A DNA stretch of 64,000 nucleotides from contig NZ_CP010536.1 in the NCBI RefSeq assembly GCF_000832305.1, forward strand, positions 3,162,001-3,226,000, given 5' to 3'. The translations under genes were made by a program, and so were the position numbers. The notes beneath the pieces are model-generated. The model worked only from the letters and a program-made list of their open reading frames with translations, was not told the DNA's origin and ran no database searches. The stretch's first letter is position 1. Each line of letters begins with the position of its first letter. Positions 41,952-64,000 of this stretch are shown here, piece after piece. This DNA is from Cupriavidus basilensis (GTDB lineage Bacteria > Pseudomonadota > Gammaproteobacteria > Burkholderiales > Burkholderiaceae).

Positions 41952-42083
41952 ATGTTGATCAACAAGAGCCACCACGTCGCCTACCGCTGCATCGACGCCA
42001 AGCAAACCGTGGAGTGGCACCAGAAGCACCTGGACATGAAGTTCGTGCATGACACATCCAATTTCGATGATTCCATGGACTAG
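41952..42083 (+). pseudogene. truncated VOC-superfamily (glyoxalase/dioxygenase-like) gene
   Basis: The first 35 or so codons (MLINKSHHVAYRCIDAKQ, then a helix ending KHLDMKFV) look like the N-terminus of a VOC-fold protein of the glyoxalase/extradiol dioxygenase type, with the first metal-ligand histidine of the beta strand present. A complete member would be about 150 or more residues. Here the frame passes into unrelated sequence (HDTSNFDDSMD) and stops after 43 codons, where the convergent gene of the exoprotein locus begins. A metal-binding VOC enzyme is a sensible last member of the MarR-MFS-monooxygenase operon, so this looks like a gene cut by a rearrangement. Confidence 0.65.
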
Positions 42084-42574
42084 CCAGACCGCTCCTGCGC
42101 ATGGCAAAACCCGATCCACGCATGCAGCACGCCGGCATGCGCGAAAGAGCCAACGCCGAACACCACGGCAATCGCCGCGCTCCACGGCGCCGTCGCCACC
42201 GCGGGCGCGTCGGCCATGCCCGCCATCGGCGCCACCATCTCCGGCAGCACGCCAGTGCCCCAGCCCAGGACCAGGAACATGGCGCAGCCCGCCGACATGC
42301 CGGCGCACGAAAACCGCAGCGCCAGTGCCGCGCGCCCGGTGAAGGCGGCATGCCGGTGCAGGTGGTTGATGCGCAGGATCGCCACGGCATTGGCTGCCGC
42401 CACGATCCCCATCAGCGACGCCCAGAAGAACGGATGATCGCTGCGCGCGTCCTGCATCAGCAGCACGCCGATGGTGAGGAAGGTGGGCGCAGCCAATGTC
42501 GCCACGCTCCATGACAACACTTGCCACGCCCACCATGGGTGGCGCCATCGTAGCCGGCGCGCGCGCGGGAGCAC
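42080..42574 (-). CDS. four-helix membrane protein, unknown function
   Basis: A 164-residue protein with four likely membrane helices (LSWSVATLAAPTFLTIGVLL, FWASLMGIVAAANAVAILRI, FSCAGMSAGCAMFLVLGW, APWSAAIAVVFGVGSFAHAG) and an arginine-rich start. The start is a GTG at 42574, 13 bp after the stop of the giant exoprotein gene, so it is probably translated from the same mRNA. I do not recognise the family. It could be an accessory to the exoprotein locus or an unrelated gene at the end of the operon. Its end overlaps the truncated VOC fragment by four bases on the opposite strand. Confidence 0.6.
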   Translation of the reverse strand: MLPRARRLRWRHPWWAWQVLSWSVATLAAPTFLTIGVLLMQDARSDHPFFWASLMGIVAAANAVAILRINHLHRHAAFTGRAALALRFSCAGMSAGCAMFLVLGWGTGVLPEMVAPMAGMADAPAVATAPWSAAIAVVFGVGSFAHAGVLHAWIGFCHAQERSG

Positions 42575-42587
42575 CCCCGCCAGGGGC

Positions 42588-45500
42588 TCAGCGCTGGAGA
42601 TTGCGGCGCTCCGTGGCGCTCAGCTGGCTGAGCTGCGACTCGCTCAGCTCCATCTGGCCCAGCACCTGCACCACCCCGTTGGGGTCGTAGCCGGCCGGCG
42701 CGGCCCTGGCCCCTTCCCTCGCCTTGGGCGCGGCCTCGTCCGCATCCGTGCCAAAGCCGAGCACCCGCACCGTGAAGATCGACGGCAAGCCCTGGCGCGC
42801 CGCGGTGCGCTCGCGCTGCAGCGCGTCCTGCGCCGCGCTCACCGCCTGCGAAGCCGCCGCGCTGGCATTGGTCAGCGCGCCGACGTTCACCGCGGCCAGC
42901 ACGGGGATGCCAGTGGCCTTGCCCTGCACCTGGATGTTCTCGGCGTTGACCACCCGCAGCGCGGCCAGGTTGACGTTGCCGGACACGCGGATGCCGGCTT
43001 CGCCCGCGTCGATGGTGCCCAGCGGCGCGATCAGGTCGATGTCGCCCGGCGGTACCTCGGGAACCGGGTTGAGCGTGGCGATGCCCGCGCCGGTGTTGGG
43101 CGTGGTGGGCGACAGGGTGACCAGGCCGATGTTGTCGTACAAGCGCCGCTGCGGTGTGTAGACCACGGTGGACTTGGAGCCGCGCCCGGCATTGATGTCG
43201 CCCTGCGCCGACCACGCCAGGATGTTGCCGCCGAAGGTGGTGAAGATGCGGCTCTGCCCCAGCAGGATGCTGTCCCTGGCGTAGATCTGGACCTCGCCCG
43301 CGCCCTGCGTCAGCACGCCCGACCCCTCGCCCGGGATGAAGCCGCCGTCCACGCCGACCAGCGTGCGCCCGCCCGGCGTCATGATGTCGACGTCGCCGCC
43401 GAAGTCGGTATGGATGCCGGCGTCCAGCAGGTCGTACACCCCGATGTTGTATGGGTTGCCGGCCGCCTTGTACTCATCGCGCCGCAGATAGGTGACGCCC
43501 TTGAGCGGCCGCTTGGTGGCGAGCGCCCCGGAGACCGGGGCATAGTAGTTGGCGCTGCTGAACATGGTCAGGTCGCCCTGGTAGGCCAGCGCGTTGCCCT
43601 GTGCGTCATGCGTGGGGAACAGCGTAGCGATGGCCTCGCGCCCGCGCAGGTAGCTGCCCTCGCGCGGGCCGCCCGCCTGGTTGTACTCGCGCCCGGCGGC
43701 CTTGAGCTCGGCGTAGTACACGTTGCGCAGGTAGGCCCGCTGCTGCTCGGGCGGCAACGCGGCGAAGAACTGCCGCGCGTCCATGCTGGCCGCGTCGAAG
43801 TGCAGGCCCAGGCCGTTATGCCCGCCAAAGCGGCCGCTCAGCCAGTTGACCAGGTGCAGCTGGCTGGCCAGCCCGTACTCGCGCCGCAGGTCGCGGTTGG
43901 CGGCGGCCGCGCCGGCCGCCAAGGCTTGCTGGCGCGCGCTGTCGAGTTCCGCCTGCTTGCCTTGCAGGTAAGCCGGCGCGCCGGCCTCGTCGCCCGCGTA
44001 GCCGAACTGGGCGCGCAGCCAGTCGGCCAGCTTCAGCTCGCCACCATAGACGGCCACCACCTTGCCCGGCTGGTCCGCAAGGGCGCGCCCTGCATCGGCC
44101 TGGTTAGCGGGATCCAGGTAGCGCCTGGCGAAGGCGTTGAAGTCCAGCCCGTTGCGGCCCACGCCTGCCGCCACCGCGATGCTGGCGCCGCTGCCGCGGT
44201 CGCCCGGGGTCACGTTGGCCACCGGCCCGATGCTCTTGAGCTCGGCCCGGTCGGCCATGTACAGGTCGCGCCCGGCGGTGACTTCCAGCAAGCCGGGACC
44301 GGCCACGTAGAAGTTGCTGAAACGGATGTCGCGGCCGGCCGAGACCACGGACACATCGTCCGCGTTGTTGTGCACGATCAGGTTGCCACGCGCGGTGGCA
44401 TTCAGGACCGAAGTGGGCTTCTCGGCAAGGGTGCCGTCGCCGCGGCGCGGAGGAAGGTACCAGCCGTGGCCATCGACGGGCAGGTCCTCGGACTCGCCCA
44501 GCGCCGTGCCCGCGTTGACAAGGTCGCGCCCCGCGCGGATCGCCACCGGTCCGCCACCTTCATACCAGTTACCGAAGGTGAGGGCCGAACCAACGCCATT
44601 GGCACGGGAAATGATCGAACCCGTGCGCAGGCCGACGATATCGCCATCGACCGCATAGAAGCGCGCCGGCTGGCTGCCGGGGACCGCGTAGCCCGAGGCC
44701 GTGGGCGGTGTGAAACTGAACAGCGGGTAGGCCTGGTACGACCCTGCGCCGCCGTTGTTCGCCAGGAACACGCCGGCTGCCAGTCCGTCCGGGCTGATAT
44801 TGCTCAGCTTCAGCGTGCCGTAGTTGATCTTCACCGTGCTGCCGCTGAACGCGGCGTTGAACGGATTTGGCAGGGCCGTGGCATCGGCGCCCGATTGCGT
44901 GATGCCGTAGCCGCCGGCGTAGATCGAATCGCCCGCCAGCAGTTCCAGCTGGCCCGGGCCCGTGTGGGCATACTGCGGCCCCACCGGTGACGGCGCCAGC
45001 ATCAGCGTGGCGTTGTACTGGACTGGCCGGTTCGTTCCGTCCACCGCGCCGGTGCTGGAATTGCCGTAGTAGAAACTGCCGCTGGGCGCCACCGCGCGCA
45101 GCACCGACGGCATCATGAAACGCCCGTCGGTCGCCGCGTGGTTGCCGCCGGTACCTGAATCCGCCGCCGCCATGGATGGCGTCAGGTTGCCGCCCGCGCT
45201 GAACAGGTCGATGGCGGTGCCCGGCGTCCACAACGAGAACCAGGTCCAGCCATCACCGGTGTAGCTGGCGCCGTTGGCCCGGAACGGCGTGCCGTTGTTG
45301 ACCAGCGCCACGCGCCCCGGGTCGCCGACGCCGCCGAGCACCAGGTCGCCGCGCGCGTCGATGCGCACGCCGGCATCCCCGGGCACCAGCACCGGCCCGC
45401 CGCCCGCGATGGAGGACGTGGCCTTGTACACGTCGTAGGCACGCGATTCGGCGGGATCAGCGCGGTCGAAACGCAACTCGATGCCGCCCACCGAACCGGC

Positions 45501-48500
45501 CTCCACACGCAACGCCCCGCGCAGGTTGACAAAGGTGCTATTGAGTTCGCCGTAGCCTCCTGAGTAGCGCGTCGCCGGTGTGGCATCACCGGTCTGCGAA
45601 GCGAACGAGCGCACTTCCGCCACCGGGTTGAGCCCGCCGCCGATGCGGATATCGAGGTCGCCGCCGCCGGCCAGGGTGAGCTGCTTGCCATCGGCCGAGA
45701 CGCGGCCTGTGCTCGCCACCGCCAGGTTCAGGCCCTGGCTGCGGGCCATATAGCTGCTGGTTGCCGTCATGCGCGACGACAGCATGCCGGCGTCGCCGCC
45801 GGCCTCCAGCACCAGGTTGCCGCCGCCCAGGGTGCCGATACCGGTGAACCCGGTCAGGAACGGCGCGCCCGAGAACAACGCGTAGCCATCCTTCGGGCCG
45901 GCCACATAGCTGCCGAAGTTGACCCACCAGGCGGTGGGCACGCCCTCGGCGCCCGTCACCGCGCTGCCGGTGCCCTGGCGCCACAGCCAGTTGCCGACGG
46001 CGGTGGCGCCGAGGTGAGGGCGTATGGTGCCGATCGCGTCGACCCGGCCCTGGTTGCCACCGGCACCGATCAGGTCGCCCTTCACGTCGCCCTGGGCGCG
46101 TACCAGCACATTGCCACCGTGCTCCGGGTACCAGGCGCGGTACAGGCTCTGGCTGCCGCCGTCGATATATGGCACAAACGTCGTGCCATCCGGGCCCAGC
46201 AGCGTGCCGTCGAAGGCGGTGGCACGCGGCAGGTTGTACGCCGCGCCCACGCCAGCGGACTGCGTACCGGCGGTGTAGACGCCGAACGGCGAGGTCATGG
46301 TGAAATCGCCGCCCGAGATCAGGTCCAGGTCGCCGGTGCCGGTGCGCAGCACGCTGAAGAGCTGCTGGCGGGCCGGCTGCATCTGCGCCCGATACACCGG
46401 AGGCGTGCCGTCCTTGACCTTGACGACCACCAGGCCATACCCTAGGTCGTTGAACTTCTTGACCTCTTCCTCGCCGCCCCACTCGTCCAGGTTGATCGGC
46501 GTGCCGGGCTCGATGCCCGAGAATTCCAGCGAATCCCCTCCCCACACGTATTCACCCGGCAAGCCGGTGCCCGGCAACACCACATTCACCGAGACCAGGC
46601 CGTAGTGAGTGTCGGCCAGCAGCATGGACGCCTGCTTGCTGCGCGTTTGCAAGGCGCGCGTGTCGGCAGCCTGCGTATCCGCGCCGCTCACCAGCCGCAC
46701 CGACCACGATTGCGAGCCCTCGGGCAGCATCGGCGCCAGCGCCCAGTTGCGGCCCTGGTTGCCGCTGGCGTCTCCTGGGCGCAGTGACACCATGACCGCA
46801 TCGTCCGGCAGCTTGACCACCGTCTCGCTCGGGATCACCGCCCCCTTGCGCAAGACAAGCGCGTTCGCCAGGTAGACGCCTGGCGCGGTATCCACGCTCG
46901 TGCCGGTCTGCGGCAGCGGCACGCCGGCCGGCCAGGTCATGGCCGCCACGCTGGCCCCGCCGGCAAGCCGATTGCCGGCGTCGAGCTGCATGCCGCTGGC
47001 CAGCGTCAGCGGCTGCGACAGTACCGTGCCCGCCGCCTGCACCACCTTGCCTTGCGCGTCGCGCACCGCGCCGCCCAGTACCGTACCGGCCGGCAGCACC
47101 AGGTCCGACGCCAGCGTGGCGCGCGCCGGCAGCACCGTGCCGGGACGCAGGTTCACGGCCTTGATCGGCAGGTCGTAGTTGAGCGTGCGGCCGGACAGGA
47201 AGAAGGTGTCTTCCGCCAGCGTGACCATCTGGCCCTGCGGGATGACGACGTCGCCGCCCCAGGGCACCCTGCCCTTGACCAGCACCCAGCCCTGGTCGTC
47301 CGGCGTGACTGGCAGCGCCGAAGCGTCGAAGCCATCGGTCAGGCTGCCGTAGACATTCAGGTTGCCGCCCGCGCGCAGCACCAGCGCGCCGGCTTCGCCG
47401 GAGCCATAGACGCCGGTTTGCTGCGTGCGCGGGTTGACGCTGGCATAGCGGTAGCGCGACAGGTCGATGTCGCCATCGATGTGCAGGTCGCCGTCCGGCG
47501 TGGCGCTGACGATCTCCACGCCCGGGCGCAAGTGGAAAGCGTCGGCATAGCCGCGCAGCCCGGCGAGCTTGCGGTTCATCAGGTCGCCGTTGGCCAGCGC
47601 GTTGCCCATGAACACCAGGCTATCTGCGTGCTTGGCGTCCAGGTAGGCCTGGTTGATGACCTGGTAGGGACGGCCGTCGGCCATCGGGTCGGTGCCCCAG
47701 GCCGCGTCCTTGTAAGACCAGAAGCCGTTGACCGCGATGGAGCGCGCACCGTCGATGCGCAGCGCGCCGCTGGCGTCGATATCGATATCGGTGCCGGTGG
47801 CGCCGCCCAGGCGCGGGGCGTTGAGCTCGACCGTGCCGAGCGACTGCGCGCCTGCGCCGGTGCCGGCGCGCAGGTCCATGCGCGCGCCGCTCTCCAGCGT
47901 GAGCCGGCCCGTGCCGGCATTGATCTCGATGGTGGCGCGGTTGGGCGCCTCGATGACCTGGCCGTAGCTGTCCACGCGCAGCACCGTGCCATGCGCGTCG
48001 AGCAGCGCGCCGCCGCCGATGGTGACGCCGTTGCGCGCGGCCAGGCGGATGCTGCCGACCTGCTCGCCGCTGGCGTCGATGGTGCCGGTCACGGTGAGCT
48101 TGCCGCCGTCCACCGACACGCTGATCTCGCGCGCCTTGAGTTCATCGCCGATGGCCAGGTCGCCCTGCTTGAGCTGGAAGCTGCGGATGCCGGAGAGCTT
48201 GCCCTCGTTGAGGCGCTGGTTCAGTCCCGTGAAATCGGCGATCTGCTGCGCGCGGATGTCCGACCCACCGGCCGCGTACGGCACCAGGGTGCCGCCGGCA
48301 TCGTAGTGGCCGCTGCTGCCGCCCAGCACGCTGCCGCGCAGGTCGATGGTGCCCGCGCCCGCGCCCAGCGCGAGCACGGTGAGCTTGCCCGCGCGGTTCT
48401 CCTTGGCGGAAACGTCGATCAGCGCGCCGGCGGCCTGGCGCACATCGCCAGCGCGGCTTTCCAGCACCACGTCGCCGCCCCAGCTGTACTTGCTGACGTC

Positions 48501-51500
48501 ATAGAAATCGAGCTTGCGCCCGGCCAGGTCGAGCCGCGCGCCGTCGCGCAACACCACGTCGCGCTCGGCGGACACGGTGAGCTTGCCACTGGGCAGCACT
48601 ACGGTGCTATCCAGCGCCACGCTATTGCCGTTGAGCGCGATCTCCGCGCCCAGGGCCTCGGCCAGGGCCTTGCCGGACAAGGCCGGCGCGGCGGCACCGG
48701 CAGGCGCCGTCAAGCGGATGTCGCCGCCGGCGGTGATCTTGTTGACCGAGCCCGCCTGGCCGGTCAGCAGCGGCGTGTTGAGATTCAGGTTGCCGCCGCT
48801 GTAGGCATAGCCCTTGGTGGCGTCATCCCAGGCGCCTTGCGACTGGTAGACCGCGAGCGACCCCTTCTGGTTGGCGGTGATGCGCTCGCTGGCGTTGAGG
48901 TCGACCTGAGCGAAGCCGAGCACCATCCGGTCCATGGCGTGGATGGTGTCGGGGCGGCTGTTGGGGCCATAGCCGAACTCGATCTGCTTCGCGTCGACCT
49001 GCAGGCGGCCACTGCCCGTGCCGGCGCCGCCGGTTGCCACCAGCCCCGGCGCATTGGTTGCGCCGTTCCACACCAGGATGTCGGTGTGGATGCGGGCCAG
49101 CGCATCCGCATTGCCATAGCCCTGGATGGCCGGCGTGCCCAGCACCAAGCGCGCGAGCGAGGACTTGCCGGTGGCCGGGTCGATGGTGGACAGCGCCACC
49201 GAATCATAAAAGCGCAGCGCGTCGCGTGCGGTCAGCGCCAGGTTCTCCAGTGCCGGCGCGCCGGTGCTGGTGTCGCCCTTCAGGAGCCGGTCCAGCACGT
49301 CCTGGTTCAACGTCAGGCCCGGCGGCAGCGCATTGCGCGCGGCCAGGTCCGCCAGCGTCGCTTGGTTGCCCGCGTTGATGCCGCCGACCGACAGCAGCAG
49401 GTTGCGCGTGCCGTAGCGTGCCGCATCGCGCAGGTTGAAGCTCTGGTCGGTCGAGGCGGCGATGGTGCCCTCGGAATAGAGCGGCGTGGTGCCATGGCAG
49501 ACCGTGCCCGCCCCGCAGCCGCCGATGTCGATGCGGCCCGCGCCGCGCATGGGGTCCGCGCTGTAGCCCGGCGCCAGCATGTCCAGCCAGCCGTTGGAGA
49601 CCGCCAGCACGCTGACAGCGCCCGGATCGTAGACATAACCGCTGGTGGAATCCCAGGCGGCCTTGCCCTGCCCCAGCGTGTTGATGCCGCCGCCCTGCTC
49701 GACGAAGATGCCGCCCGATTTGGCATTGGTCACCAGGTACACCTCGGCGGCCTTGAGCACCGCGCCTTCGCGCAGGAAGATGCTCCCCGCCCCGCCATCG
49801 AACGTGGCGATGTTGGCGCGTTGCCTGCTGCCGTAGAAGTCGACATAGCGCACCGCTGGCAGAGCGCCGATGCCGATGCGCGAGGCGCCGATGGCATTGA
49901 TATCCGCGGCGTACAGCGAGGTGCCGCCAAAGCCCGGCGTCGGCGCCGCGCCGGCGGCCAGGATTTCGTAGCTGGTACCGCCCATCATCAGCGCACTGCC
50001 GCCAAACCCGCCCACGGCGGGCGCGTACAAGGTGCGCCCCGCGAAGCGCAGGACGGGCTCATCGCCAGCGGCGCGCGGCGCAGACGGCGCGAAGGAAAAA
50101 CGCAGTGTCTTGGCGTCGCGCTCCAGCTGGGCGCGCGGCACGCCTTCGCGTGCGGCCTGGGCCAGCGCAAAATCCGCGTAGCTTGTCTCGTTGTACTGCG
50201 AATAGCTGCGCAACACGTCGGCAGGCGTCAGGAAGACCTGGGTGGGCACGGCATTGCGGATGCCGGTGTTGGCCACGCCCAGTTGCGCCGCGGCCGCATA
50301 CGAGCCATTGCGCATGGCCATGGCGCCAGCGCCCGCCAGCGTGCCATTGCCCAGTCCGTTGAGCTCGACGCGGAACGCGCCGGGCAACAAGGCGAAGGTG
50401 GAAGGCAACAGCGTGTAGGTGCCGGCGGGCAGGCCCGGCACGCCGGCGCCGATGGTGATCTGGCGGCCGATGGCCGGATCGCTGGCCCCTTTCTCGGCCA
50501 CCACCGGCGCGTAGCCGGGCTGCACGCCCGGCACGATCGCATAGACCGGGTTGGTCGACAGGCCCGGCAAGGTGAAACCGCCGCGGGCGCCGACCTGCAC
50601 CAGCGGATTCATGCGCGCGTCCACCGAGCCACCGCGCCCGGCGAGGAAGGCCGCGCCGGTGAGCGTGCCGCCACCGCTCAGGTCCAGCACCGCGTCCTGC
50701 CGCACGTCGATCGTCTTCCCGGCCAGGGTGATGGCCGGGCCATTGCCCACGCCGCTGAACACCACGTCGTTGCCGTCGTGCATGTAGCTGAGCCCGTCGA
50801 GCGAGCCGCCATAGGGCATGACCAGGCCGTTGGCGCTGATCGAGCTCACGCTGCCCGGCAGCAGGTTCAGGCGCTCCGTCACAGCGCCGTAGCCCGTCGA
50901 TCCCAGCTCGAGGTTGCCCAGCGGCGCCCGCACCACGCCGCCCTGGTTGATGGTCGGGGCGCCGAAGCTCAGGCGGCCGAAGACGGAATAGGGCATGGCC
51001 GGCAGCTCGTCGCCAACGCGCTCGATGTCGAGGTGGCGCGCGGGGTCGAATTCACGCTGGATATTGCCGTAGTTGTCGATAAAGCTGCGCTGTCCGACGA
51101 TCACCGAGCCGCTGTCGCCCATGCCCGGATAGATCTGCGCGGCGGCCAGCGTGAGGTTGCCGGGTACGCTCAGCGAGGCGGTACGGTACATACGCAGGTC
51201 GCCGCGGCTGCGCAGGGTCGTGGCATCGAAGGCACCGCGCTCTACCGCCAGCGAGCTGTCGGCGTTGCGCTTGATGACGCCGCGCACGCCGATCTGCGTG
51301 GTACCCACCAGGTCCAGCAGATCCGCCTCGACCTGCAGCCGGGTGCCTTGCGACACCAGCGGCACGCTCGCCGTGCTCCGCGCCGGGTTGGGCATGTAGT
51401 AGAAGTCGGGCGCAACGCGGGTCGTGCCGGCCAGGCGCACATAGGGCGCGGCCAGGCTGACCTGGCTGCCGGCAGCGGCATGCTCCGCCAGCGCGATCGC

Positions 51501-56192: not shown

Positions 56193-56556
56193 TCTGGCTT
56201 CCATTCCCGTCTAGCTCATTCGGCGTGGCCCGCTCGCCCGGCATTGCTTGGCATTGCTCGGCGAACGGGCACTGCGATCATGTCCATCGATGGCAAGCGC
56301 CGTCGATGCTCCTGGGATCTAGACCGTTGGGCGCGGGGGAATCGGCAAGGTTTTATTTGAAGATTTCGTGACAGGGGGATGGGGGAAGGGGTCGTTAAGC
56401 GGGCTTCCGGTTACTGCCGACGTGGGTGGGGCGGAATTTTGTTGCTTTCAGCTGCTGACGCGGCTGCTCGGTGGCGGCATCCCTGCTCATTCACACATCT
56501 GCCGGTACCGGTCCGAATCACCACGATATATCACGTCATGATGTTTTTGTGATGGG

Positions 56557-56610
56557 GTGGGCGCGGTGGTGAATCCCTCAGAACAATTCCGGCGGTGCCA
56601 CCGCGCCCAC
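56557..56610. repeat. 13-bp perfect inverted repeat
   Basis: Arms GTGGGCGCGGTGG (56557-56569) and CCACCGCGCCCAC (56598-56610) around a 28-nt loop, between the exoprotein and fecR-like genes. It has no U tract, so it looks more like an RNA structure or regulatory site than a terminator. Confidence 0.6.
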
Positions 56611-56757
56611 GACGAAAACGGGACGCCCGCAGATTCGTGGCCGGTCAAGCCGGTACCGGCAGATGCCCGCCAACACTCCGGTCCGTACGACGAAACCAAC
56701 GAGGCTGACAAGCCCGATTGCTCTGCCCCCGGCAGGGTCGACTTTCTTCTCGTTAGT

Positions 56758-56836
56758 CTTCTTTGCCGACGCAAAGAAGAGTGACCGGCAGCCCCCGCAG
56801 GGGGATGTCGTATGGCTGTTGGTTCCAAAAACCAAC
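56758..56836. repeat. three-hairpin repeat-like cluster
   Basis: Three perfect hairpins in 79 bp: CTTCTTTGC/GCAAAGAAG with a CGAC loop, CCCCC/GGGGG with a GCA loop, and GTTGGTT/AACCAAC. I recall very similar intergenic strings (CTTCTTTGCGTCGGCAAAGAAG and a nearby AACCAAC stretch) in other beta-proteobacterial genomes, so this is probably a copy of a dispersed non-coding repeat. That recollection was not checked. Confidence 0.5.
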
Positions 56837-57004
56837 GCCGCCAAGAGAAACGAAACCGCGACCAACCCTGCGGCACGATGTCTTCACGCTCACCGCAACA
56901 CCAACCCCAAGCCCTTCATCGGGACCAAGAGCGCTCGCACGCATCCTGCTGAAGCGCATGCGCGCCAATCGCCAATCAAGTTCCAAACGGCATGGAACGC
57001 CGCA

Positions 57005-58006
57005 CTAACCAAGCAACACGATCCCCCCCGGCAACGACCGCACCTCCAGCCCAAGCGAGCGCTGCATCTGCGCAATCGCCTTATCCAGCGACCGAATCTG
57101 AAACCGCCCCGTCACATGCCTGCCCGCCACCCGCGTATCCAGCAGCACCACCCTACCCGGCCGATAGCGATTGATCTCCTCAACCACCTCACGCAACGGC
57201 GCATCGGCAAACCGCAGGTAGCCATCCCGCCACGCCGGCATCCCTGTCGGATCGACACGCAGGATGCGCCCGAGCGCAGCACGATCGTAGCTGAGTTGCT
57301 GCTTGCCGCTCAGCGTCGCGATGCCTGTGGCATGCGCCACCTGCACGGTCCCCTCGACGCAAGTCACGCATGCGCCGGCAGGCGTGAGCCGCACTTCGAA
57401 CCGGGCGCTCTGCGCAAACGCGCGTCCCGGCCCGGCGACGACCGCGAACGGCCGCGGCGCATTCAGGGTATCGACGGCGGCTTCGCCGGCGATCAGGTCG
57501 ATGCCCTGCACACGCCCCGCTCCGGAGCGCACGGCAATACTGGTGCGCGTATTGAGCTCGACGGTGACATCCTCGGCCAGCGCCAGCCGGCGTTGCTCGC
57601 CGGTCGCGGTGCGGTAGTCCGCGCGCATCTCCTCCACGGAAGGCCACAAGCCCAGCGGCGGCCGCATGACGGCCACCGTCGCCGCGGCGGCCGCCGCGCT
57701 CATGGCGCCGCCGAGAAATGCACGCCGCTGCCAGTTCGGCGCGCGCGGCGTCCCGGCAAAACGCAGGCTGGCCGGGTTGCGGGCCACCACCAGCCGGCTG
57801 GCCTCGCCCAGTTGCGCCCATCGCTGCCGTGCCACGGACAAAGCCGCCTGGTTGGCGGGATCCGCCATGCACCAGCGCCGCAGCGCGGCGCCGTCGGCCT
57901 GCGTCATCTCGCCCGCCGCCACGCGGCGCACCCAGGCGAGCGCCTGCCGCTCGATCGCGTCAAGCGTGCGTTCCGGTTGTAGCGCAGGATTCATCATTCG
58001 TATCAT
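57005..58006 (-). CDS. FecR family anti-sigma factor
   Basis: A 333-residue FecR-type regulator. The N-terminal cytoplasmic domain (DUF4880, residues 17-66) has WVRRVAAGEMTQADGAALRRW and PANQAALSVARQRWAQL and should hold the sigma factor. A twin-arginine motif QRRAFLGG (93-100) runs directly into a membrane helix (97-114), as in FecR proteins inserted by the Tat pathway. The periplasmic part has a FecR domain (about 128-225, LALAEDVTVELNTRTSIAVRSG) and a C-terminal domain (260-333) that receives the STN signal. It lies 81 bp after the ECF sigma gene on the same strand. The likely signal partner is the STN-containing protein two genes upstream. Confidence 0.9.
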   Translation of the reverse strand: MIRMMNPALQPERTLDAIERQALAWVRRVAAGEMTQADGAALRRWCMADPANQAALSVARQRWAQLGEASRLVVARNPASLRFAGTPRAPNWQRRAFLGGAMSAAAAAATVAVMRPPLGLWPSVEEMRADYRTATGEQRRLALAEDVTVELNTRTSIAVRSGAGRVQGIDLIAGEAAVDTLNAPRPFAVVAGPGRAFAQSARFEVRLTPAGACVTCVEGTVQVAHATGIATLSGKQQLSYDRAALGRILRVDPTGMPAWRDGYLRFADAPLREVVEEINRYRPGRVVLLDTRVAGRHVTGRFQIRSLDKAIAQMQRSLGLEVRSLPGGIVLLG

Positions 58007-58087
58007 GGCATCAAGCGAGCCGCCACCGTGGTTTGCCCGTGGACATAGACAAGACGGTTGGGAAGCGACAGATCGGCATGCTTTTTT

Positions 58088-58612
58088 TCATCCATGCTTG
58101 GGGCTATGGGCCATGCAGTATTCATGAGCACGCTTGAGCTCCAGGCCGATCAGGCGCGGCGACACGCCGAAGCGCACCGCGGCCTCCTGGTTCGACAGTT
58201 CATCGACCCGCACCGCGAGAAAGATCGCCCGTCGGCGTGGCGGCATGCTTTCGATGAGGCGTGCAACGGCCTCGACCTCGTCACGCGCCGCAACCGTTTG
58301 CGCGGGGCCGGGCGCAGGGTCGGCAATCTCGGCCATGAGCGTCTCCATCTCTTCGGCGCTCATGTAACGGCGCTCGCGCTGCAGCCGGTCCAGCGCCAGG
58401 TTGGTGGCCATGCGCATCAGGTAGGCAGCCGGGCTCTTGACCGGATCGCCCTGCTCCTTGCGGTCTTCCAGGTGCACCCAGGTATCGTGCAGCGCATCGC
58501 TGGCGAGTTCGGCCGAGCCCAGGCGCCATGTCAGGCGGCGCTTGAGGTCGTCGTAGCGTTGCGCGAGCAACTCGCGCAGGCTGGAGCGGCTGGAGCGGCT
58601 GGAGTCGCTCAT
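58088..58612 (-). CDS. ECF-type RNA polymerase sigma factor (FecI-like)
   Basis: A 174-residue extracytoplasmic-function sigma factor. Region 2 is present (LKRRLTWRLGSAELASDALHD, then the -10 recognition segment SPAAYLMRMATNLALDRLQR) and region 4 (LIESMPPRRRAIFLAVRVDE, SNQEAAVRFGVSPRLIGLEL) completes the protein. It belongs to the iron-starvation/FecI group by region 4 pattern and by pairing with the FecR gene just downstream. The ATG directly follows the stop of the STN-TonB gene (TAGATG), so translation is coupled. The N-terminus has a Ser-rich repeat from three copies of GGAGCGGCT. It probably transcribes the exoprotein gene. Confidence 0.92.
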   Translation of the reverse strand: MSDSSRSSRSSLRELLAQRYDDLKRRLTWRLGSAELASDALHDTWVHLEDRKEQGDPVKSPAAYLMRMATNLALDRLQRERRYMSAEEMETLMAEIADPAPGPAQTVAARDEVEAVARLIESMPPRRRAIFLAVRVDELSNQEAAVRFGVSPRLIGLELKRAHEYCMAHSPKHG

Positions 58613-59329
58613 CTATCGGCTCGCCTGCCGGCCGCAGGGCGGCTGGCACGAGCCGGAGCGGGCCGCCGCCGCATCACAGCGCACCGGCTTGACCAGCAGC
58701 ACGAATGCCTTGGCCGGATCCCCGGGCGGCTGGCCCACATCGACGTGCTCCACGGTCTCGATGATGGCTGCATCGCGTGCCTTGTCGCCGGTGGTGTCCA
58801 GCAGGCGCGCGTGCGCAACGTGGCCGGCCGCGTTGAGCTGCACATAGAGCGCAAGGCGATATTCCCCGAGCGCGAGTGCGGGCCGCGCGCAGAGCGCCTG
58901 ATAAACCTGCGACTGCACAGCGCCGTCATATTGCCGCGCCGCGCTGGCCGGGGGCTGCGCGACGGCCGTGTCCGCGTAGCGCGGCGCGGGCACCAGCACA
59001 AAGGCGTCGGCCGCGGTTGCCTGCACGTTCAGCCCAGTGCCCTCGAGCATCTTGCGCAGGGCGTTTTCCGGGCTGAAGGTGCCATGGACGGCAGTCGAGG
59101 TTCGCCCCGCTGCCAGCTCGGAAGAAAAGAAGACGGACAGGCTGGTCTGCGCGTCGTATTGCGCCAACGCTTGCTTGAGCGGCTGGGCCGGCAGGTCGAA
59201 TGCCATCTCGCCCCCGGCGCGGTTGGCGGGCTGCTGGGCGCGGGTCTGCTGGCAGGCCAGGCATAGGGCCAGGACCGCCATATAGACAACCAGTGCGCGC
59301 GCACCGGGGGATGCGGCCAAACGTGCCAT
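58613..59329 (-). CDS. STN domain-TonB C-terminal-like fusion protein (VreA-like)
   Basis: A 238-residue periplasmic protein. A signal peptide (MARLAASPGARALVVYMAVLA) ends near TRAQ. Residues 43-113 form an STN domain, with FDLPAQPLKQALAQYDAQTS, SVFFSSELAAGR, GTFSPENALRKMLEGTGL and AFVLVP. Residues 140-216 resemble the TonB C-terminal domain (YQALCARPALALGEYRLALY, QLNAAGHVAHARLLDTTGD). There is no beta-barrel, so it is not a TonB-dependent receptor. This layout matches VreA of the P. aeruginosa PUMA3 signalling system, which sits beside sigma VreI and anti-sigma VreR. Its STN domain should signal to the FecR protein. Start choice is uncertain; 59404 is an in-frame alternative. The sigma gene begins immediately after its stop. 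Confidence 0.8.
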   Translation of the reverse strand: MARLAASPGARALVVYMAVLALCLACQQTRAQQPANRAGGEMAFDLPAQPLKQALAQYDAQTSLSVFFSSELAAGRTSTAVHGTFSPENALRKMLEGTGLNVQATAADAFVLVPAPRYADTAVAQPPASAARQYDGAVQSQVYQALCARPALALGEYRLALYVQLNAAGHVAHARLLDTTGDKARDAAIIETVEHVDVGQPPGDPAKAFVLLVKPVRCDAAAARSGSCQPPCGRQASR

Positions 59330-59462
59330 CACGATCCAATGCCATGTGCGTTGAGGAGTCCTTGCCGCATCGGGCGCTCGGCCCAAGTGCATATCCGTGC
59401 GCATCGTAGGGATCCAATGTGACGCCGCCGTGAATGCGTGGCGCCCACTGCCGTGACATGGC

Positions 59463-60857
59463 TCACTCCTCCTGCGCGGGACCCGCCGGCTGCCGCGTCT
59501 CGATCGCGACAAACAGCCGTGCGTTGCCGCGCTGGACCAGCAGCGCCACGGCACCGTCCGCAGCGCTGGCCTCGTCGGCCAGCGCCTCGATGCTGTCGAC
59601 CGGCTGGCCGTTGACGGCGAGAATCACGTCGCCAGCGTTCATGCCGGCGCGCGACGCGGCCGCGTTCACGCGCTGCACCAGCAGGCCGCCGTCGATACGC
59701 AGCACCTGCCGCTCTTGCGCCCACAGCGGCCTGACCATCATGCCCAGCGGCGCGTGCCCGGGCGCGGCCGGGCGCGCCACCCGTGGCGCGTCGAAGCGAT
59801 CGGGCCGCACCGCCAGCACGAGCGCGGCGCGGTCCCGCCAGAGGCGCAGCGGTACGGCAACGCCGGGGGCCAGGTCCGCGATGAAGATCAGCGCATCGGC
59901 GGACTGCACGACGTCGCACTCGCCCACCTGCAGGATCACGTCGCCCGGCTTCATGCCGGCCCGGCCGGCGGCCCCGCCGGGCTGCACATAGCTCACCAGC
60001 GCGCCCGCGGGCCGGGGCAAGCGGAACGAATCGGCCAGGGCCTGCGAAACCTCCTGCACCGCCACGCCGATACGCCCGCGTGTCACCGCGCCCTGGCGCA
60101 GCAACTGGTCCTTGATGCGCATGGCCACATCGATGGGGATGGCGAACGACAAGCCCTGATAGCCGCCGCTGCGGCTGTAGATGCGGGAATTGATGCCGAT
60201 CACCTCACCCTTGAGGTTGAACAGCGGGCCACCGGAGTTGCCGGGATTGACCGGCACGTCGGTCTGCAGGAAGGGCATGTACTCGGCGCCGGGCAGCACC
60301 CTGCCCTTGGCGCTGACGATGCCGGCCGTGACCGAGTGGCTGAAACCGTAGGGTGAGCCGATGGCCAGGGCCCAGCTGCCCACTTCCACGCTCGCCGCGT
60401 CGCCGATCTTCACCGTCGGCAAGCCGGTGGCGTCGATCTTGAGCAGCGCGACGTCGGCAACGGCATCCAGCCCGATCAGCCTGGCCTTGAACTCGCGCCG
60501 GTCGGTCAGCTTCACGCTGACCAGGGACCCGCGCGCGACCACGTGCGCGTTGGTGAGGATATAGCCGTCGCCGCTGAGGATGAAGCCCGAGCCCAGGCTG
60601 GTCTCGTCGACATTGTCCTGGCCCTGCGCACGCCCGCGCAGCGGATCGGGCGATGCCTCGCGGGCTACACCGATGTTGACCACCGCCGGGCCATTCTCGC
60701 GGACCAGCCGCGAGAAATCGGGCGCGGCTCGCCATGACGCCGCCTGCAGCGGCGCGCATCCGGCCGTGCCTGCCGCCAGCGCAAAGAGCAGCGCCATGGC
60801 GGCAAGAGCCAGCGAGCGCCGCGCGAATCCGCTGCGGCGGCCCAGGTCGAAAGCCAT
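59463..60857 (-). CDS. S1C-family serine protease, DegP/HtrA-like
   Basis: A 464-residue secreted trypsin-fold protease. After an N-terminal membrane/signal segment (LALAAMALLFALAAGTAGCAP) the catalytic triad is His105 (NAHVV), Asp135 (ADVALLKID) and Ser208 (GNSGGPL). Two PDZ domains follow (about 265-345 and 375-455, with RAGMKPGDVI and RAGMNAGDVI). DegP-like proteases act as periplasmic quality-control factors. The CDS starts 7 bp after the TonB-like gene's stop with GAGGTGG upstream, so both are in one operon. It may trim or degrade stalled exoprotein. The Ser residue and both PDZs are intact, so an active enzyme is expected. Confidence 0.88.
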   Translation of the reverse strand: MAFDLGRRSGFARRSLALAAMALLFALAAGTAGCAPLQAASWRAAPDFSRLVRENGPAVVNIGVAREASPDPLRGRAQGQDNVDETSLGSGFILSGDGYILTNAHVVARGSLVSVKLTDRREFKARLIGLDAVADVALLKIDATGLPTVKIGDAASVEVGSWALAIGSPYGFSHSVTAGIVSAKGRVLPGAEYMPFLQTDVPVNPGNSGGPLFNLKGEVIGINSRIYSRSGGYQGLSFAIPIDVAMRIKDQLLRQGAVTRGRIGVAVQEVSQALADSFRLPRPAGALVSYVQPGGAAGRAGMKPGDVILQVGECDVVQSADALIFIADLAPGVAVPLRLWRDRAALVLAVRPDRFDAPRVARPAAPGHAPLGMMVRPLWAQERQVLRIDGGLLVQRVNAAASRAGMNAGDVILAVNGQPVDSIEALADEASAADGAVALLVQRGNARLFVAIETRQPAGPAQEE

Positions 60858-60864
60858 CGCCACC

Positions 60865-61335
60865 TCAGCTCGCTTGCGCGCCATCCAGCCCCAGCCCCAG
60901 CACCATGGGCTGGCGCATATCCGGTGGCGGCGGCTCGGGCAGCGCCTTCGTCATCAGCACCGCGCGCAGGTCCGCGTCGGCCTGCGGATTGCCCAGCGAG
61001 TCGAACTCCATGCGCGCCACGCGGCCATCGGGAGCAAGCCACACGCGCATCACCAACGACGCGCCCGGCAGCGCGCGGGCCTGCATCCAATCCTGCATGC
61101 GCAGGGCGCTCGCGTCGGCCGGGTCGCCCAGCCGCGCCTGGAACTCCGCGCTGGCCAGTTGCGCATAGCGCATCCAGTGCTGCGGGAACGGCTGCGCCGG
61201 GGCGGCGGCGGAAGACGCCGCGCCCAGGCCCACCAGCCCCAGCGTACGGAGCAAACGCCGCCACATCTTCTGTGGCACGGCCAGCTTGCGCGCGGCAGGA
61301 CTGGCCTGCCGGCTTGGCTCAATCGGGGAATGCAT
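60865..61335 (-). CDS. small TonB C-terminal-like protein
   Basis: A 156-residue exported protein. The N-terminus is polar to residue 25, then a hydrophobic segment (LLRTLGLVGLGAASSAAAPAQ) acts as signal peptide or anchor. The rest resembles a TonB C-terminal domain (RMQDWMQARALPGASLVMRV, WLAPDGRVARMEFDSLGNPQ, PPPPDMRQPMVLGLGLDG). It is close in pattern to the TonB-like half of the STN fusion two genes downstream, so this locus encodes two such domains. Proline-rich linker and obvious ExbB/ExbD contacts are lacking, and no exbB or exbD gene is in the window. Its role may be structural rather than energy transduction. Confidence 0.7.
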   Translation of the reverse strand: MHSPIEPSRQASPAARKLAVPQKMWRRLLRTLGLVGLGAASSAAAPAQPFPQHWMRYAQLASAEFQARLGDPADASALRMQDWMQARALPGASLVMRVWLAPDGRVARMEFDSLGNPQADADLRAVLMTKALPEPPPPDMRQPMVLGLGLDGAQAS

Positions 61336-61566
61336 CGAAGTTCCTGTCTTTCGTCATGGCGCAACCGGCCACGAAGGCCCGCAACGTAGTCATACAAAGA
61401 CGGAACTCACCGTCGGGATATGCTGTTTGTCATGGAAGCTTCATACACCGTGCGCATCGAGACCGGGGCGTCACCATTTGCCTCGCTCCAACGGCACGGT
61501 GATCCAGGCCCTGGCGCCGCGGCCGCCCTGCTACGAAATGCCTGCTGATTGGCGGTGCGTTGGTCA

Positions 61567-62106
61567 CTACGCGGCGGCGGCCTCTTCCTGCGCAGGGGCA
61601 TCCGCAGTTGCATCGCCAGTTGCATCGGCACCTGCAACCGCATCCGATACCGCCGGCTGGAAGTTGCGCAGATGCAGGAAGAACTGGCCCATCATCTGCG
61701 TCCACAGCTGCAGTGCCACGGTGAGATAGTCGGGGCCCACGCCGCCGGAGATCACCACGTCCATCTCAAGCACCAGGAATTCGCCGTGCTGCGCGACGCG
61801 CGCGAAGCGCTTGGCGCGATGCCAGTCGCCCAGCACACACTCGGGCAACGCGCCGCCTTGCACCCGCAGCGGGCAGCTCAGCGTGAAATCCAGGTACGCA
61901 TCCGGCGCAAGCGAGTTGCCCCAGAGGACCTGGAAGCCAACGCCGTGGCTGGCGCTGTGCAGGCGCAGCACGCCGTCCTGCTCGATGGCCGTCACGGCGC
62001 AGCCGGCGGCCTTGATGGCATCGCCGACCTGCTCCGAAGTCACTGCCATCAGCAGTGCGGGCTGGCTGTCTGCCGAGGTGTCGATCTGGGTTGCGGTGGT
62101 GTTCAT
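61567..62106 (-). CDS. YbjN-like domain protein
   Basis: A 179-residue cytoplasmic protein with the YbjN/type III secretion chaperone-like fold (PF10722) as judged by the pattern MAVTSEQVGDAIKAAGCAVT, GVLRLHSASHGVGFQVLW, DAYLDFTLSCPLRVQG, WHRAKRFARVAQHGEFLVLE and VALQLWTQMMGQFFLHLRNF. YbjN members behave as type III chaperone-like regulators in some bacteria. An Ala/Asp-rich tail (about 150-179) has no clear function. No signal peptide is present. In this operon it could bind the exoprotein or a partner in the cytoplasm. I am confident of the fold family but not of the function. Confidence 0.65.
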   Translation of the reverse strand: MNTTATQIDTSADSQPALLMAVTSEQVGDAIKAAGCAVTAIEQDGVLRLHSASHGVGFQVLWGNSLAPDAYLDFTLSCPLRVQGGALPECVLGDWHRAKRFARVAQHGEFLVLEMDVVISGGVGPDYLTVALQLWTQMMGQFFLHLRNFQPAVSDAVAGADATGDATADAPAQEEAAAA

Positions 62107-62204
62107 GGGTATCTTGGTGATTAAAAGATTGGGACTTGGATTGAAGCTTGGATCGGGATTGAGGCTTGCGTGACCGGGCGCCGCAATCCGCACCCGCGTC
62201 CTGT

Positions 62205-63155
62205 TCAGTTCGCCTTGTGCAGCACGGCATCCAGCGCGGCGGTGTCGATGCTGGCCGCGCCAGGCGCAACCAGCCTTGCCATATAGGCCTGCACGAGCTG
62301 CTGCTGGCGTTGCTGGCGCATGGCCGCCACCAGCTGCGGCTTGATCTCGTCGAGCGTGGCAATGCGGCCAGCCTGCGTGTCCAGCAGCTTCATCACATGA
62401 AAGCCCGCGGCCGATTGCACCGGGTCGCTCACCTGGCCAACCTTGAGCCTGGCAACGGTGTCGCGCACTTCCGGCAGCATCTGTGCCAGCGGCAGCGCGC
62501 CGACCTCCCCGCCGCGTTCGGCACCGCGGGGATCCTGCGAGCGGCTCTTGGCGAGCGCCGCGAAATCGCCCTGCCGTGCCTGCGTGGCAAGCTTGCGGGC
62601 TTCATCGCGTACCTTGGCCGTGGCCGCGGCATCGCTGCCCTGGGTGGCCAGGAAGATCTGCGCGACGCGGTAGCTGGCGGGCACCTGGAAGTTCGCCTTG
62701 CCGCCTTCATAGGCTGCGTTCACCTCGGGCTCGGACGGATAGCCCGCCGGCAGCTGCGCGACCGACTCCAGGTAGGTCGAGGCGACGATCCGCGCGGAGA
62801 TCTCGCGCATGGCGGCATCGACGCGCGCCTTTACCTCGGGCCGTTCCGCCCAGCCCTTGCCCTGTGCCTCGCGCAGCAGCGCTTCACTGGCCAGGCGCTG
62901 GCGCAGCCAGTTCTCGATGCCCGCGCGGTTGCTCCTGGCCGCGGCGCGGTCCGCTTCCGGCAGGCCCTGCAGCAGCCGCTCCACGTCATCCTGGCCAACG
63001 GTGACCGAGCCGGCGCGCGCCACCACCGGACCGCTTGCCGTGGCGGGCTCCGCGGCCTGCACCGGCGCTGCGCTCAGCCACGAGGCCAGCAGGACGCCGA
63101 TGGCCGCGCGCACGGGCGGCAGCATGGACTGGGCATGTGATTTCATTCGAATCAT
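62205..63155 (-). CDS. PpiC-type peptidyl-prolyl cis-trans isomerase (parvulin)
   Basis: A 316-residue periplasmic parvulin. A signal peptide (MIRMKSHAQSMLPPVRAAIG, then VLLASWLSAAPVQA) is cleaved near residue 31. A helical SurA/PrsA-type region follows (about 40-160), then a rotamase domain (about 165-265, YRVAQIFLATQGSDAAATAK, QDPRGAERGGEVGALPLAQM, VGQVSDPVQSAAGFHVMKLL) and a C-terminal helix. Such proteins fold exported polypeptides. Placed in the exoprotein operon with a DegP-like protease, it probably keeps the 460-kDa substrate secretion-competent. The start at 63155 has AAGGTAAG upstream. The frame is open upstream but without signal-peptide logic. Confidence 0.85.
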   Translation of the reverse strand: MIRMKSHAQSMLPPVRAAIGVLLASWLSAAPVQAAEPATASGPVVARAGSVTVGQDDVERLLQGLPEADRAAARSNRAGIENWLRQRLASEALLREAQGKGWAERPEVKARVDAAMREISARIVASTYLESVAQLPAGYPSEPEVNAAYEGGKANFQVPASYRVAQIFLATQGSDAAATAKVRDEARKLATQARQGDFAALAKSRSQDPRGAERGGEVGALPLAQMLPEVRDTVARLKVGQVSDPVQSAAGFHVMKLLDTQAGRIATLDEIKPQLVAAMRQQRQQQLVQAYMARLVAPGAASIDTAALDAVLHKAN

Positions 63156-63337
63156 CTGTGTCTTACCTTTTTTCTCCGGGAGCGCGGGCGAACGCCTGCG
63201 CGGGCCGGCGGCATCGCCTTGCCCGCGCGCAGGCCCGCGCGCCTCATGACATCGCAGCAACATGACAAAACACTCACGCCCCAGCAACAGCAGGCTCGGC
63301 GCCACCGCCATGCGCGGTCCGTTGCTGGCGTTGCGCG

Positions 63338-64000
63338 TCATGGGCGTGGCGCCTCTGCCGCGCCCGTGGTGCTCGTGGTGCTCGTGGTGCTCGCCGCAGC
63401 ATTGACATCGGCAGCCGCCTGCGCGGGTGCGTCGGCGGCTGCCGCGGCGCCGGCCGCGAAGCGCCCTTCATACAGCTTGTCGCCATACTCCTGCGCGATC
63501 TGCTCGAACTTCACCCGGCTCTGCGCCGCGAAGGGCTGGCGCGCGATCATCACCGTGCCCAGGTCCACCGTCTCGTAGGCGCGCAGGATCTCCTGGCCCA
63601 CTGCGTAGAGCTTCGCGTTCTTGGCCTCGCACTGCGCCACGGTGGCATGCTGGGCCTTGGCCTCCAGGGCCAGGCGCTGGCGGTCCGCCTCGGCCGCGCG
63701 CGCGAGCTTGAGCAGTTCGTCATAGGCGTTGCGGTACTGTGCAATCTGCGTGCTCGCCTTCTCGGCAACCGCCTGTGCCTGCTGTTGCGCCTGCTGGTTC
63801 CTGTCACTCAGCCGCTCGCGCTCCTGGCGCTCGGCAGCGAGTTGGGCACGGGCGCGCTCCAGTTCCTTCTTCGCGTCGGCGTCCGCGCCGGATGGCGCGG
63901 CGCCGACATGTGGCGCGCCGGCCTTGAGCGCGGCCAGTTCGTTCTGCGCCTGTTGCAGCTGCGTGGTGGTAACGCGCAACTGGGCGCGCAGGCGCTCTTC
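63338..64000 (-). CDS. coiled-coil protein, 5' end beyond the window
   Basis: At least 221 residues of a protein that continues past the right edge. The visible part has long Ala/Gln/Glu-rich coiled-coil stretches (RARAQLAAERQERERLSDRN, QAQAVAEKASTQIAQYRNAY), then a conserved-looking compact module (QCEAKNAKLYAVGQEILRAY, then VMIARQPFAAQSRVKFEQIA and QEYGDKLYEGRF) and an Ala/Thr-rich tail (ASTTSTTSTTGAAEAPRP). It is the first gene of the visible locus, upstream of ppiC. I do not recognise the family; I recall similar sequences next to large TPS exoprotein genes in Burkholderiales but cannot check. The true start lies outside the window. Confidence 0.7.
   Translation of the reverse strand, partial: EERLRAQLRVTTTQLQQAQNELAALKAGAPHVGAAPSGADADAKKELERARAQLAAERQERERLSDRNQQAQQQAQAVAEKASTQIAQYRNAYDELLKLARAAEADRQRLALEAKAQHATVAQCEAKNAKLYAVGQEILRAYETVDLGTVMIARQPFAAQSRVKFEQIAQEYGDKLYEGRFAAGAAAAADAPAQAAADVNAAASTTSTTSTTGAAEAPRP

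Follow-up and report, generated by a model that had tools for sequence, protein, structure and literature searches.

The window analysed here, 64,000 nucleotides of Cupriavidus basilensis (bases 3162001-3226000 of the first of two contigs of an 8.42-Mb genome), ends in a gene set around tpsA, which encodes a giant exoprotein with a two-partner secretion (TPS) domain and a C-terminal DUF3739 domain. Judged from its gene content, the locus is of the PUMA3/Pdt type of Pseudomonas aeruginosa, gene for gene except for three accessory genes (Table 1). In a survey of 396 Pseudomonadota genomes, the DUF3739 cargo, the DUF2341-LamG head of an ExbB fusion protein and full-length Porin_5 showed one and the same presence pattern with zero exceptions. 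The core of the system is accordingly a TPS pair with a dedicated proton motor and a porin, to which the signalling genes are an add-on, since the core components were constant whereas the STN-TonB fusion VreA was found in 13 and a DegP-like protease in 2 of the 21 genomes concerned. We consider it probable that the locus is a PUMA3/Pdt-type system whose relay, export, helper and motor genes have the roles proposed below.

The surveyed genomes, which include that of C. basilensis, were drawn evenly and represent 231 genera; DUF3739 was found in 21 of them, belonging to 17 genera. The DNA around each DUF3739 locus was searched with profiles grown from the window proteins, and the neighbourhood counts are lower bounds where contigs end. 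At most 11 (DUF3739), 5 (ExbB head), 5 (TpsB) and 3 (Porin_5) candidates were scored per genome. The ExbB fusion, ExbD, TonB and Porin_5 were observed in all 21 genomes, and TpsB in 20. The remaining genome, G215, showed no TpsB in the genome-wide listing either, and was counted as having the ExbB fusion on the basis of 48 head residues (E 1.7e-11) at a contig start lying inside the gene. When all 396 genomes were considered, the head was matched in 29, and the strong matches, together with G215, came from exactly the 21 DUF3739 genomes; weak matches in eight genomes (E values no better than 4.8e-7; frames of 360-11725 residues) were set aside. Porin_5 was likewise matched in 29 genomes, in full length in exactly the same 21; the partial matches of eight genomes (best E 2.9e-37, frames of 446-618 residues, over the Pfam cut-off) were set aside. 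There are about 10^34.6 ways to choose 21 genomes from 396, a figure that has to be read with the non-independence of related genomes as draws. TpsB-type proteins were found in 194 genomes.

In 18 of the 21 genomes, no more than 470 bp separated the gene for the ExbB fusion from tpsA or tpsB; it lay 17.9 kb away in G363 and on another contig in G204 and G215; the TonB and Porin_5 genes were 0-63 bp apart in 20. In the DNA around the loci, a coiled-coil protein was present in 17 genomes, VreA with the sigma factor and FecR in 12, PpiC in 9 (in G019 and G324 more than 10 kb from motor or relay genes), YbjN in 7, a small TonB-C protein in 5, and the DegP-like protease and a small membrane protein in 2 each, C. 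basilensis counted. A whole-genome search of the nine genomes left without the relay added a full-length VreA in G383 only. The preliminary description of the window had treated the neighbours of the exoprotein as parts of a single system that homologous exoproteins should share; this holds for the motor genes, Porin_5 and TpsB, but in only part of the genomes for VreA, PpiC, YbjN and the protease.

Several genomes carried more than one cargo. G310 had three exoproteins and three VreA proteins with one motor set, and G159 three exoproteins and four VreA proteins with one motor set, whereas two exoproteins and two motor sets were found in G135. Thus, one motor set may serve several cargos. Three TpsB-type matches each were obtained genome-wide in G310 and G159; one TpsB probably serves all cargos there. 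A relay that accompanies the cargo, alongside a single motor set, is also what PMC2729926 describes for Rhodopseudomonas palustris and Janthinobacterium. The earlier assumption of a single large cargo is consequently correct for C. basilensis, in whose genome DUF3739 was matched once, and does not apply in general. Separately, second sets of DUF2341-ExbB, ExbD and TonB genes were noticed in G365 (C3:154050-156894, L087) and G363 (C1:2983018-2986142, L113), with no adjoining Porin_5 match in the retrieved DNA.

The relationship to PUMA3/Pdt was established by comparison with P. aeruginosa PA7. PA7 came from named genomes that were scanned with the DUF3739 end; at least 560 relatives were obtained among 598 candidate stretches, and the best 80 were kept. 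These 80 loci extend at most 10 kb past DUF3739, and the ExbB fusion was seen in 31 of them, so that its absence from the others is uninformative. In PA7, the DUF3739 exoprotein is followed by TpsB, the ExbB fusion, ExbD, TonB, Porin_5, the coiled-coil protein, YbjN and PpiC. The identities to PA7 were 63% for TpsA-DUF3739, 58% for TpsB, 57% for the ExbB head, 75% for ExbD, 43% for TonB, 54% for Porin_5, 44% for the coiled-coil protein, 42% for YbjN and 45% for PpiC, and those of the relay were 37% for VreA (over 185 residues), 38% for the sigma factor and 37% for FecR. The PA7 genome gave a single match spanning both parts of the STN-TonB alignment, followed by the sigma factor and FecR; the order vreA-vreI-vreR is therefore the same in both organisms, as is the association of tpsA, tpsB and exbBD with a homologue of PA0696, which marks PUMA3/Pdt.

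The two loci share the STN and TonB-type VreA without a barrel, the extracytoplasmic function (ECF) sigma factor, FecR, the DUF3739 exoprotein, TpsB, DUF2341-LamG-ExbB, ExbD, TonB, the putative porin and the PA0697 (coiled-coil), PA0698 (YbjN) and PA0699 (PpiC) homologues. They differ in that the C. basilensis set forms one uninterrupted run on a single strand, has the relay between the helper genes and tpsA, lacks Hxc type II genes and phdA in between, has the YbjN and PpiC genes in swapped order, and contains the additional DegP-like protease, small TonB-C protein and membrane protein. Homologous clusters have been described in Burkholderia vietnamiensis, R. palustris and Janthinobacterium (PMC2729926, PMC4971064, PMC7035377). 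In those of R. palustris and Janthinobacterium (PMC2729926), the relay adjoins tpsA and tpsB stands with exbBD and PA0696, as here; their relay is present in several copies, mostly accompanied by tpsA, and their tpsB/exbBD set in one, which resembles G310 and G159, whereas in C. basilensis there is a single DUF3739 exoprotein with a single relay.

Overexpression of VreI in P. aeruginosa raises pdtA (tpsA), pdtB (tpsB), exbB2, exbD2 and PA0696-PA0699 (PMC2729926), and PA0692-PA0699 are raised in a vreR mutant (PMC7035377). The preliminary description had proposed one regulon in which a surface-signalling module controls synthesis and quality control of the exoprotein. This idea is largely right and has already been established experimentally for the orthologous PUMA3 locus (PMC2729926, PMC7035377); less certain is the part of VreA as the sensor, since VreA is dispensable for expression of the regulon and for virulence in P. 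aeruginosa. The same literature describes exbB2-exbD2-tonB4 as a putative TonB system that still awaits characterisation, PA0696 as a putative porin, PA0697 as a protein of unknown function, PA0698 as a YbjN and PA0699 as a PpiC protein (PMC2729926, PMC4971064, PMC7035377).

On this basis, we propose that TpsB would export the giant DUF3739 exoprotein by the type Vb route, and that PpiC, the YbjN-like and coiled-coil proteins and, in C. basilensis, the DegP-like protease probably handle the long unfolded chain. The ExbB-ExbD-TonB proton motor, in which DUF2341 and LamG take up the N-terminal half of ExbB as a large periplasmic head, would act on an outer-membrane partner from the same set, most likely Porin_5 and perhaps TpsB. 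The VreA-VreI-VreR relay would switch the set on: VreA would presumably contact the anti-sigma factor through its STN end, and a partner in the outer membrane through its TonB-like end. Sigma control of the set is known from P. aeruginosa, and we infer by analogy that it applies to C. basilensis.

The exoprotein itself has a TPS domain (PF05860) at residues 163-397 (E 6.8e-23) and DUF3739 at residues 4325-4435 (E 3.3e-39) according to Pfam. The TPS domain, together with TpsB, an ordinary-looking exporter with POTRA_2 and an Omp85-type ShlB barrel, places the pair within two-partner secretion. The mass of 460 kDa given earlier agrees with that computed for the 4538 residues, 466 kDa; two of them are Cys. 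Cargo frames of the DUF3739 genomes were 3295-5122 residues long. In the predicted structure, DUF3739 comprised the last beta-helix coils, then a helix and then a flexible conserved tail (mean predicted local distance difference test (pLDDT) score 59); the alignment of DUF3739 ends omitted 22 of the 80, and a sequence search of DUF3739 against solved structures gave zero matches. The C. basilensis genome contains seven TpsB-type matches.

The motor should be active, because key positions of ExbD and ExbB were invariant: the aspartate in the N-x-x-P-x-x-D stretch of ExbD in 26 copies, and the glycine-threonine positions of the G-T-V and T-x-x-G stretches of ExbB in 24 copies. We take these positions to have the roles of their counterparts in Escherichia coli. 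As for the head, one 2025 paper names DUF2341 as one of the additional domains, their function unknown, that such ExbB-type subunits carry (PMC12505986).

Porin_5 was modelled on a 98%-identical relative (P0060). The model showed a 16-strand barrel behind N-terminal helices, with no plug apparent (mean pLDDT 67), and among solved structures it matched OmpM1, an attachment porin, best (13% identity; TM-score 0.41, normalised by the length of the query); a sequence search of Porin_5 against solved structures gave zero matches. TonB clients have an extended conserved box in the periplasm. In Porin_5, a box xVx[YF][VI][PS] was present in 20 of 20 aligned survey proteins, of which the pattern caught 17 and the other three, differing at the first positions, were read by eye; 22 copies exist, two near-identical ones (G094, G233) being omitted from the alignment. 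In the model, the box appears near the N-terminus, between helices, as an unstructured but conserved segment. In the C. basilensis protein (L009:2116-3969, window 64116-65969) it is of the VRVPYI/V type and forms a candidate TonB box. Since this conserved extended periplasmic box resembles that of a TonB client, Porin_5 would be the likeliest direct partner of the motor.

VreA was taken to start at 59404, which gives about 263 residues; its closest database match was a C. basilensis protein with 95% identity. Its STN domain was matched by Pfam (E 1.9e-10), whereas TonB_2 scored 18.2 bits, under the cut-off of 22. With an STN domain, a TolA/TonB-type C-terminal domain and no beta-barrel, VreA fits the PUMA3 type and departs from classical FecI-FecR-FecA signalling, with which the locus shares the ECF sigma factor, FecR and an STN domain; in FecA the STN domain is carried by a receptor barrel, here by a small fusion. 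The genome contained one full-length STN-TonB match. When the C-terminal profiles of VreA and the locus TonB were compared, the hhalign probability was 99.7, and on these profiles we regard the two domains as homologous. Because of this homology, VreA and the locus TonB may read the same partner. We also considered that the VreA end was derived from the locus TonB. The tree did not bear this out, putting the other TonBs of the genome on the VreA side with weak support. A hint of such an origin comes from profile scores only: the VreA profile reached 44.0 bits on the locus TonB, compared with 16.6-21.1 bits on three further TonBs of C. basilensis and 4.3 bits on another, weak candidate. When the VreA alignment was used in a second protein search, no Pseudomonas-named protein was among the matches. 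In two genomes, G094 (L048, C85:41556-46507) and G233 (L043, C2:325500-330138), an STN protein of receptor size, accompanied by a separate sigma factor and FecR, was seen a few kb past the motor genes.

Regarding regulation, PhoB is needed for these promoters in P. aeruginosa (PMC4971064). The 21 survey genomes supplied 66 regions preceding tpsA, tpsB or vreA, some of them near-copies and those too near stretch ends being omitted. Pho-box-like sites (at least 11 of 14 positions) were present in 27 of these, vs 6.6% of shuffles, which kept single-base content only, and 9.8% of 800 other upstream regions, which include those of unverified open reading frames (ORFs). This suggests that phosphate control may extend beyond Pseudomonas. 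The three such regions of C. basilensis itself scored 11, 10 and 10, so that phosphate control is no more than possible there.

Several points weigh against the proposed scheme as a whole. The expression evidence for sigma control comes from P. aeruginosa only, and there, deletion of vreA left the activity of the pdtA and phdA promoters in low phosphate unchanged (PMC4971064) and was without effect on virulence (PMC7035377). Single mutants of tpsA, tpsB, the tonB homologue and PA0696 had wild-type virulence in zebrafish (PMC2729926), so that none of the mutant phenotypes encountered ties the motor to the cargo. In C. basilensis, no motif shared by the tpsA and tpsB upstream regions was found, the best 30-base match being 19 where shuffles reach 20. 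Furthermore, the tree of TonB-type C-terminal domains leaves the grouping of VreA with the locus TonB unsettled, the Porin_5 box sits in a low-confidence part of the model, and the receptor-sized STN protein of G094 and G233 is possibly another client of the motor there.

The motor may drive or gate export, or it may power uptake through Porin_5 that is served by the exoprotein; the data favour neither. In the former case, ExbB-ExbD-TonB would draw on the proton gradient in driving, gating or releasing export of the exoprotein via TpsB, directly or through Porin_5, and the conserved C-terminal tail would stay in the periplasm as a docking or release signal. We regard this as possible but doubtful. 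The motor head, full-length Porin_5 and the cargo were never seen apart in the survey, while TpsB-type proteins are far from confined to their 21 genomes; the cargo is very long and its modelled tail flexible and conserved; and the gene set common to all 21 contains no TonB-dependent receptor, no search having been aimed at such receptors nearby. In eight genomes the motor is present although a full-length VreA match is absent, and the motor is therefore not for signalling alone. However, according to PMC5422565 type Vb export does without an electrochemical gradient, TpsB looks like an ordinary exporter, the motor genes are apart from tpsA and tpsB in G363 and G204 (indeterminable in G215), and the receptor-sized STN protein lies near the motor in two genomes. 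In the latter case, the exoprotein would act at the surface as a long catcher, and Porin_5 would import the catch as a TonB-driven channel, in the way of HxuA and HxuC for haem, a reading that we likewise hold only tentatively. The HxuA-HxuB-HxuC precedent (PMC5422565), the adjoining TonB and Porin_5 genes, the conserved box and the over-represented pho-box-like sites are consistent with it, and ligands rich in phosphate would be in keeping with the known phosphate control in Pseudomonas; the modest scores of the window's own upstream regions and the modelled 16-strand barrel without an apparent plug, with OmpM1 and no TonB-dependent receptor as its top match, are not. Like HxuCBA of Haemophilus influenzae, the locus links a two-partner exoprotein to an outer-membrane channel that is perhaps TonB-energised, but HxuC is a plug-bearing TonB-dependent receptor whereas the channel here is Porin_5, with the motor genes inside the set.

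The resemblance to OmpM1, the periplasmic helices of Porin_5 and its coiled-coil partner would also suit a Tol-Pal-like or OmpM-like link between wall and outer membrane, formed by motor, Porin_5 and coiled-coil protein, that holds or makes room for the giant protein without powered transport. This is unlikely: invariant motor residues would be needless in a passive tether, and SLH or OmpA-like domains for wall binding were not among the Pfam matches of the beyond-window proteins scanned. That signalling genes, folding helpers and TPS genes merely lie side by side is very improbable. The patchy occurrence of VreA, PpiC, YbjN and the protease would agree with it, but nearly the same gene order and published co-regulation in P. 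aeruginosa, together with the co-occurrence of the core without exception, speak against it; for the core genes in particular, a chance neighbourhood is unlikely, whereas it is possible for the DegP-like and small TonB-C genes.

Returning to the proposed PUMA3/Pdt-type scheme, the locus represents a known and well-described kind of system in Cupriavidus, and what is gained beyond this is the strict association of motor, porin and cargo, which suggests a powered class of TPS. In its widest form, which we put forward as a speculation with the odds against it, DUF3739 exoproteins would constitute a distinct proton-motor-coupled TPS class in which the motor acts on Porin_5, TpsB or both, and VreA, as a second reader of the same partner, reports the status of the machine to the sigma factor. 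Textbooks present type Vb secretion as the example of export that needs no energy source, and a class never seen without a proton motor makes that rule testable by gene deletion; such a class, if real, would give a function to the uncharacterised exbB2-exbD2-tonB4-PA0696-PA0697 of P. aeruginosa. The association was not found in print: the term DUF3739 was absent from the literature searched, which excluded most subscription papers, and beyond the PUMA3 papers none of those listed bore on it by title or start of abstract, the PdtA paper that they cite not having been looked up. The available excerpts of the Herbaspirillum seropedicae genome paper mention adhesins with FhaC and no motor genes (PMC3093359).

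The positions of the genes are shown in Table 1. Within the window, the ORF list gives ten minus-strand genes; read from 64000 towards 42080, their order is coiled-coil protein, PpiC, YbjN, small TonB-C protein, DegP-like protease, STN-TonB protein, ECF sigma factor, FecR, exoprotein and membrane protein. The strand, order and overlaps had been described correctly, and the number, said to be eleven, is ten, as many as the description itself named. Its extent of 22 kb ending at 64000 was too short: in 20 kb of DNA across the window end, the same-strand set continues for 6.7 kb with short gaps or overlaps. Extending the sequence, as had been suggested, revealed all four of the genes looked for (TpsB, the last of them, 5 kb past the window, exbB, exbD and tonB) and Porin_5 in addition; beyond tpsB, a gap is followed by rpoD. 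Since fecR and tpsA are separated by 800 bp, they do not necessarily form one transcript, and by analogy with the pdtA promoter a separate tpsA promoter in this gap is possible. No clear gene was seen in the gap, just short unlikely-looking ORFs.

Table 1 Features of the PUMA3/Pdt-type locus of C. basilensis, in window numbering
Feature	Position	Strand	Remarks
Small membrane-protein gene	42080..42574	-	Downstream of tpsA; no Pfam match; hydrophobic stretches; accessory
tpsA	42588..56204	-	4538-residue exoprotein; TPS near N-terminus, DUF3739 at C-terminus; PdtA type
fecR-tpsA gap	56205..57004	.	800 bp; possible separate tpsA promoter
vreR/fecR, anti-sigma factor	57005..58006	-	DUF4880, FecR and weak FecR_C (Pfam)
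vreI, ECF sigma factor	58088..58612	-	Sigma70 r2 and r4 (Pfam)
vreA	58613..59404	-	STN fused to TonB-type C-terminal domain; without beta-barrel
DegP-like serine protease	59463..60884	-	Trypsin_2 and PDZ; accessory
Small TonB-C protein	60865..61335	-	TonB-type C-terminal domain only; accessory
YbjN-family protein, PA0698-like	61567..62193	-	Pfam YbjN
PpiC-type peptidyl-prolyl isomerase, PA0699-like	62205..63341	-	Three rotamase models (Pfam)
Coiled-coil protein, PA0697-like	63338..about 64171	-	Crosses window end at 64000
Porin_5	64116-65969 (past window end)	-	Pfam
TonB	65966-66676 (past window end)	-	
ExbD	66687-67097 (past window end)	-	
DUF2341-LamG-ExbB fusion	67113-68912 (past window end)	-	
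TpsB	68980-70731 (past window end)	-	POTRA_2 and ShlB, 583 residues

The domains named in the preliminary description were recovered with Pfam for TPS, DUF3739, FecR, sigma factor, STN, protease, YbjN (24.9 bits vs a cut-off of 22) and PpiC, whereas both TonB_2 matches fell below the cut-off, that of the small TonB-C protein with 20.3 bits. The coiled-coil and membrane proteins gave zero Pfam matches. The DegP-like protease has its His, Asp and Ser motifs in place; relatives were found around the loci of one of the 20 other genomes (G255) and in 4 of the 80 named loci. With 2 of 21 genomes each, the protease and the membrane protein were ruled out as core parts. Among the named loci, one titled Bacillus subtilis SK7B5 (L155) showed DUF3739, TpsB, ExbB, ExbD, TonB and Porin_5 in the same order as the Stenotrophomonas locus L153, and is probably from a contaminated or misnamed assembly.

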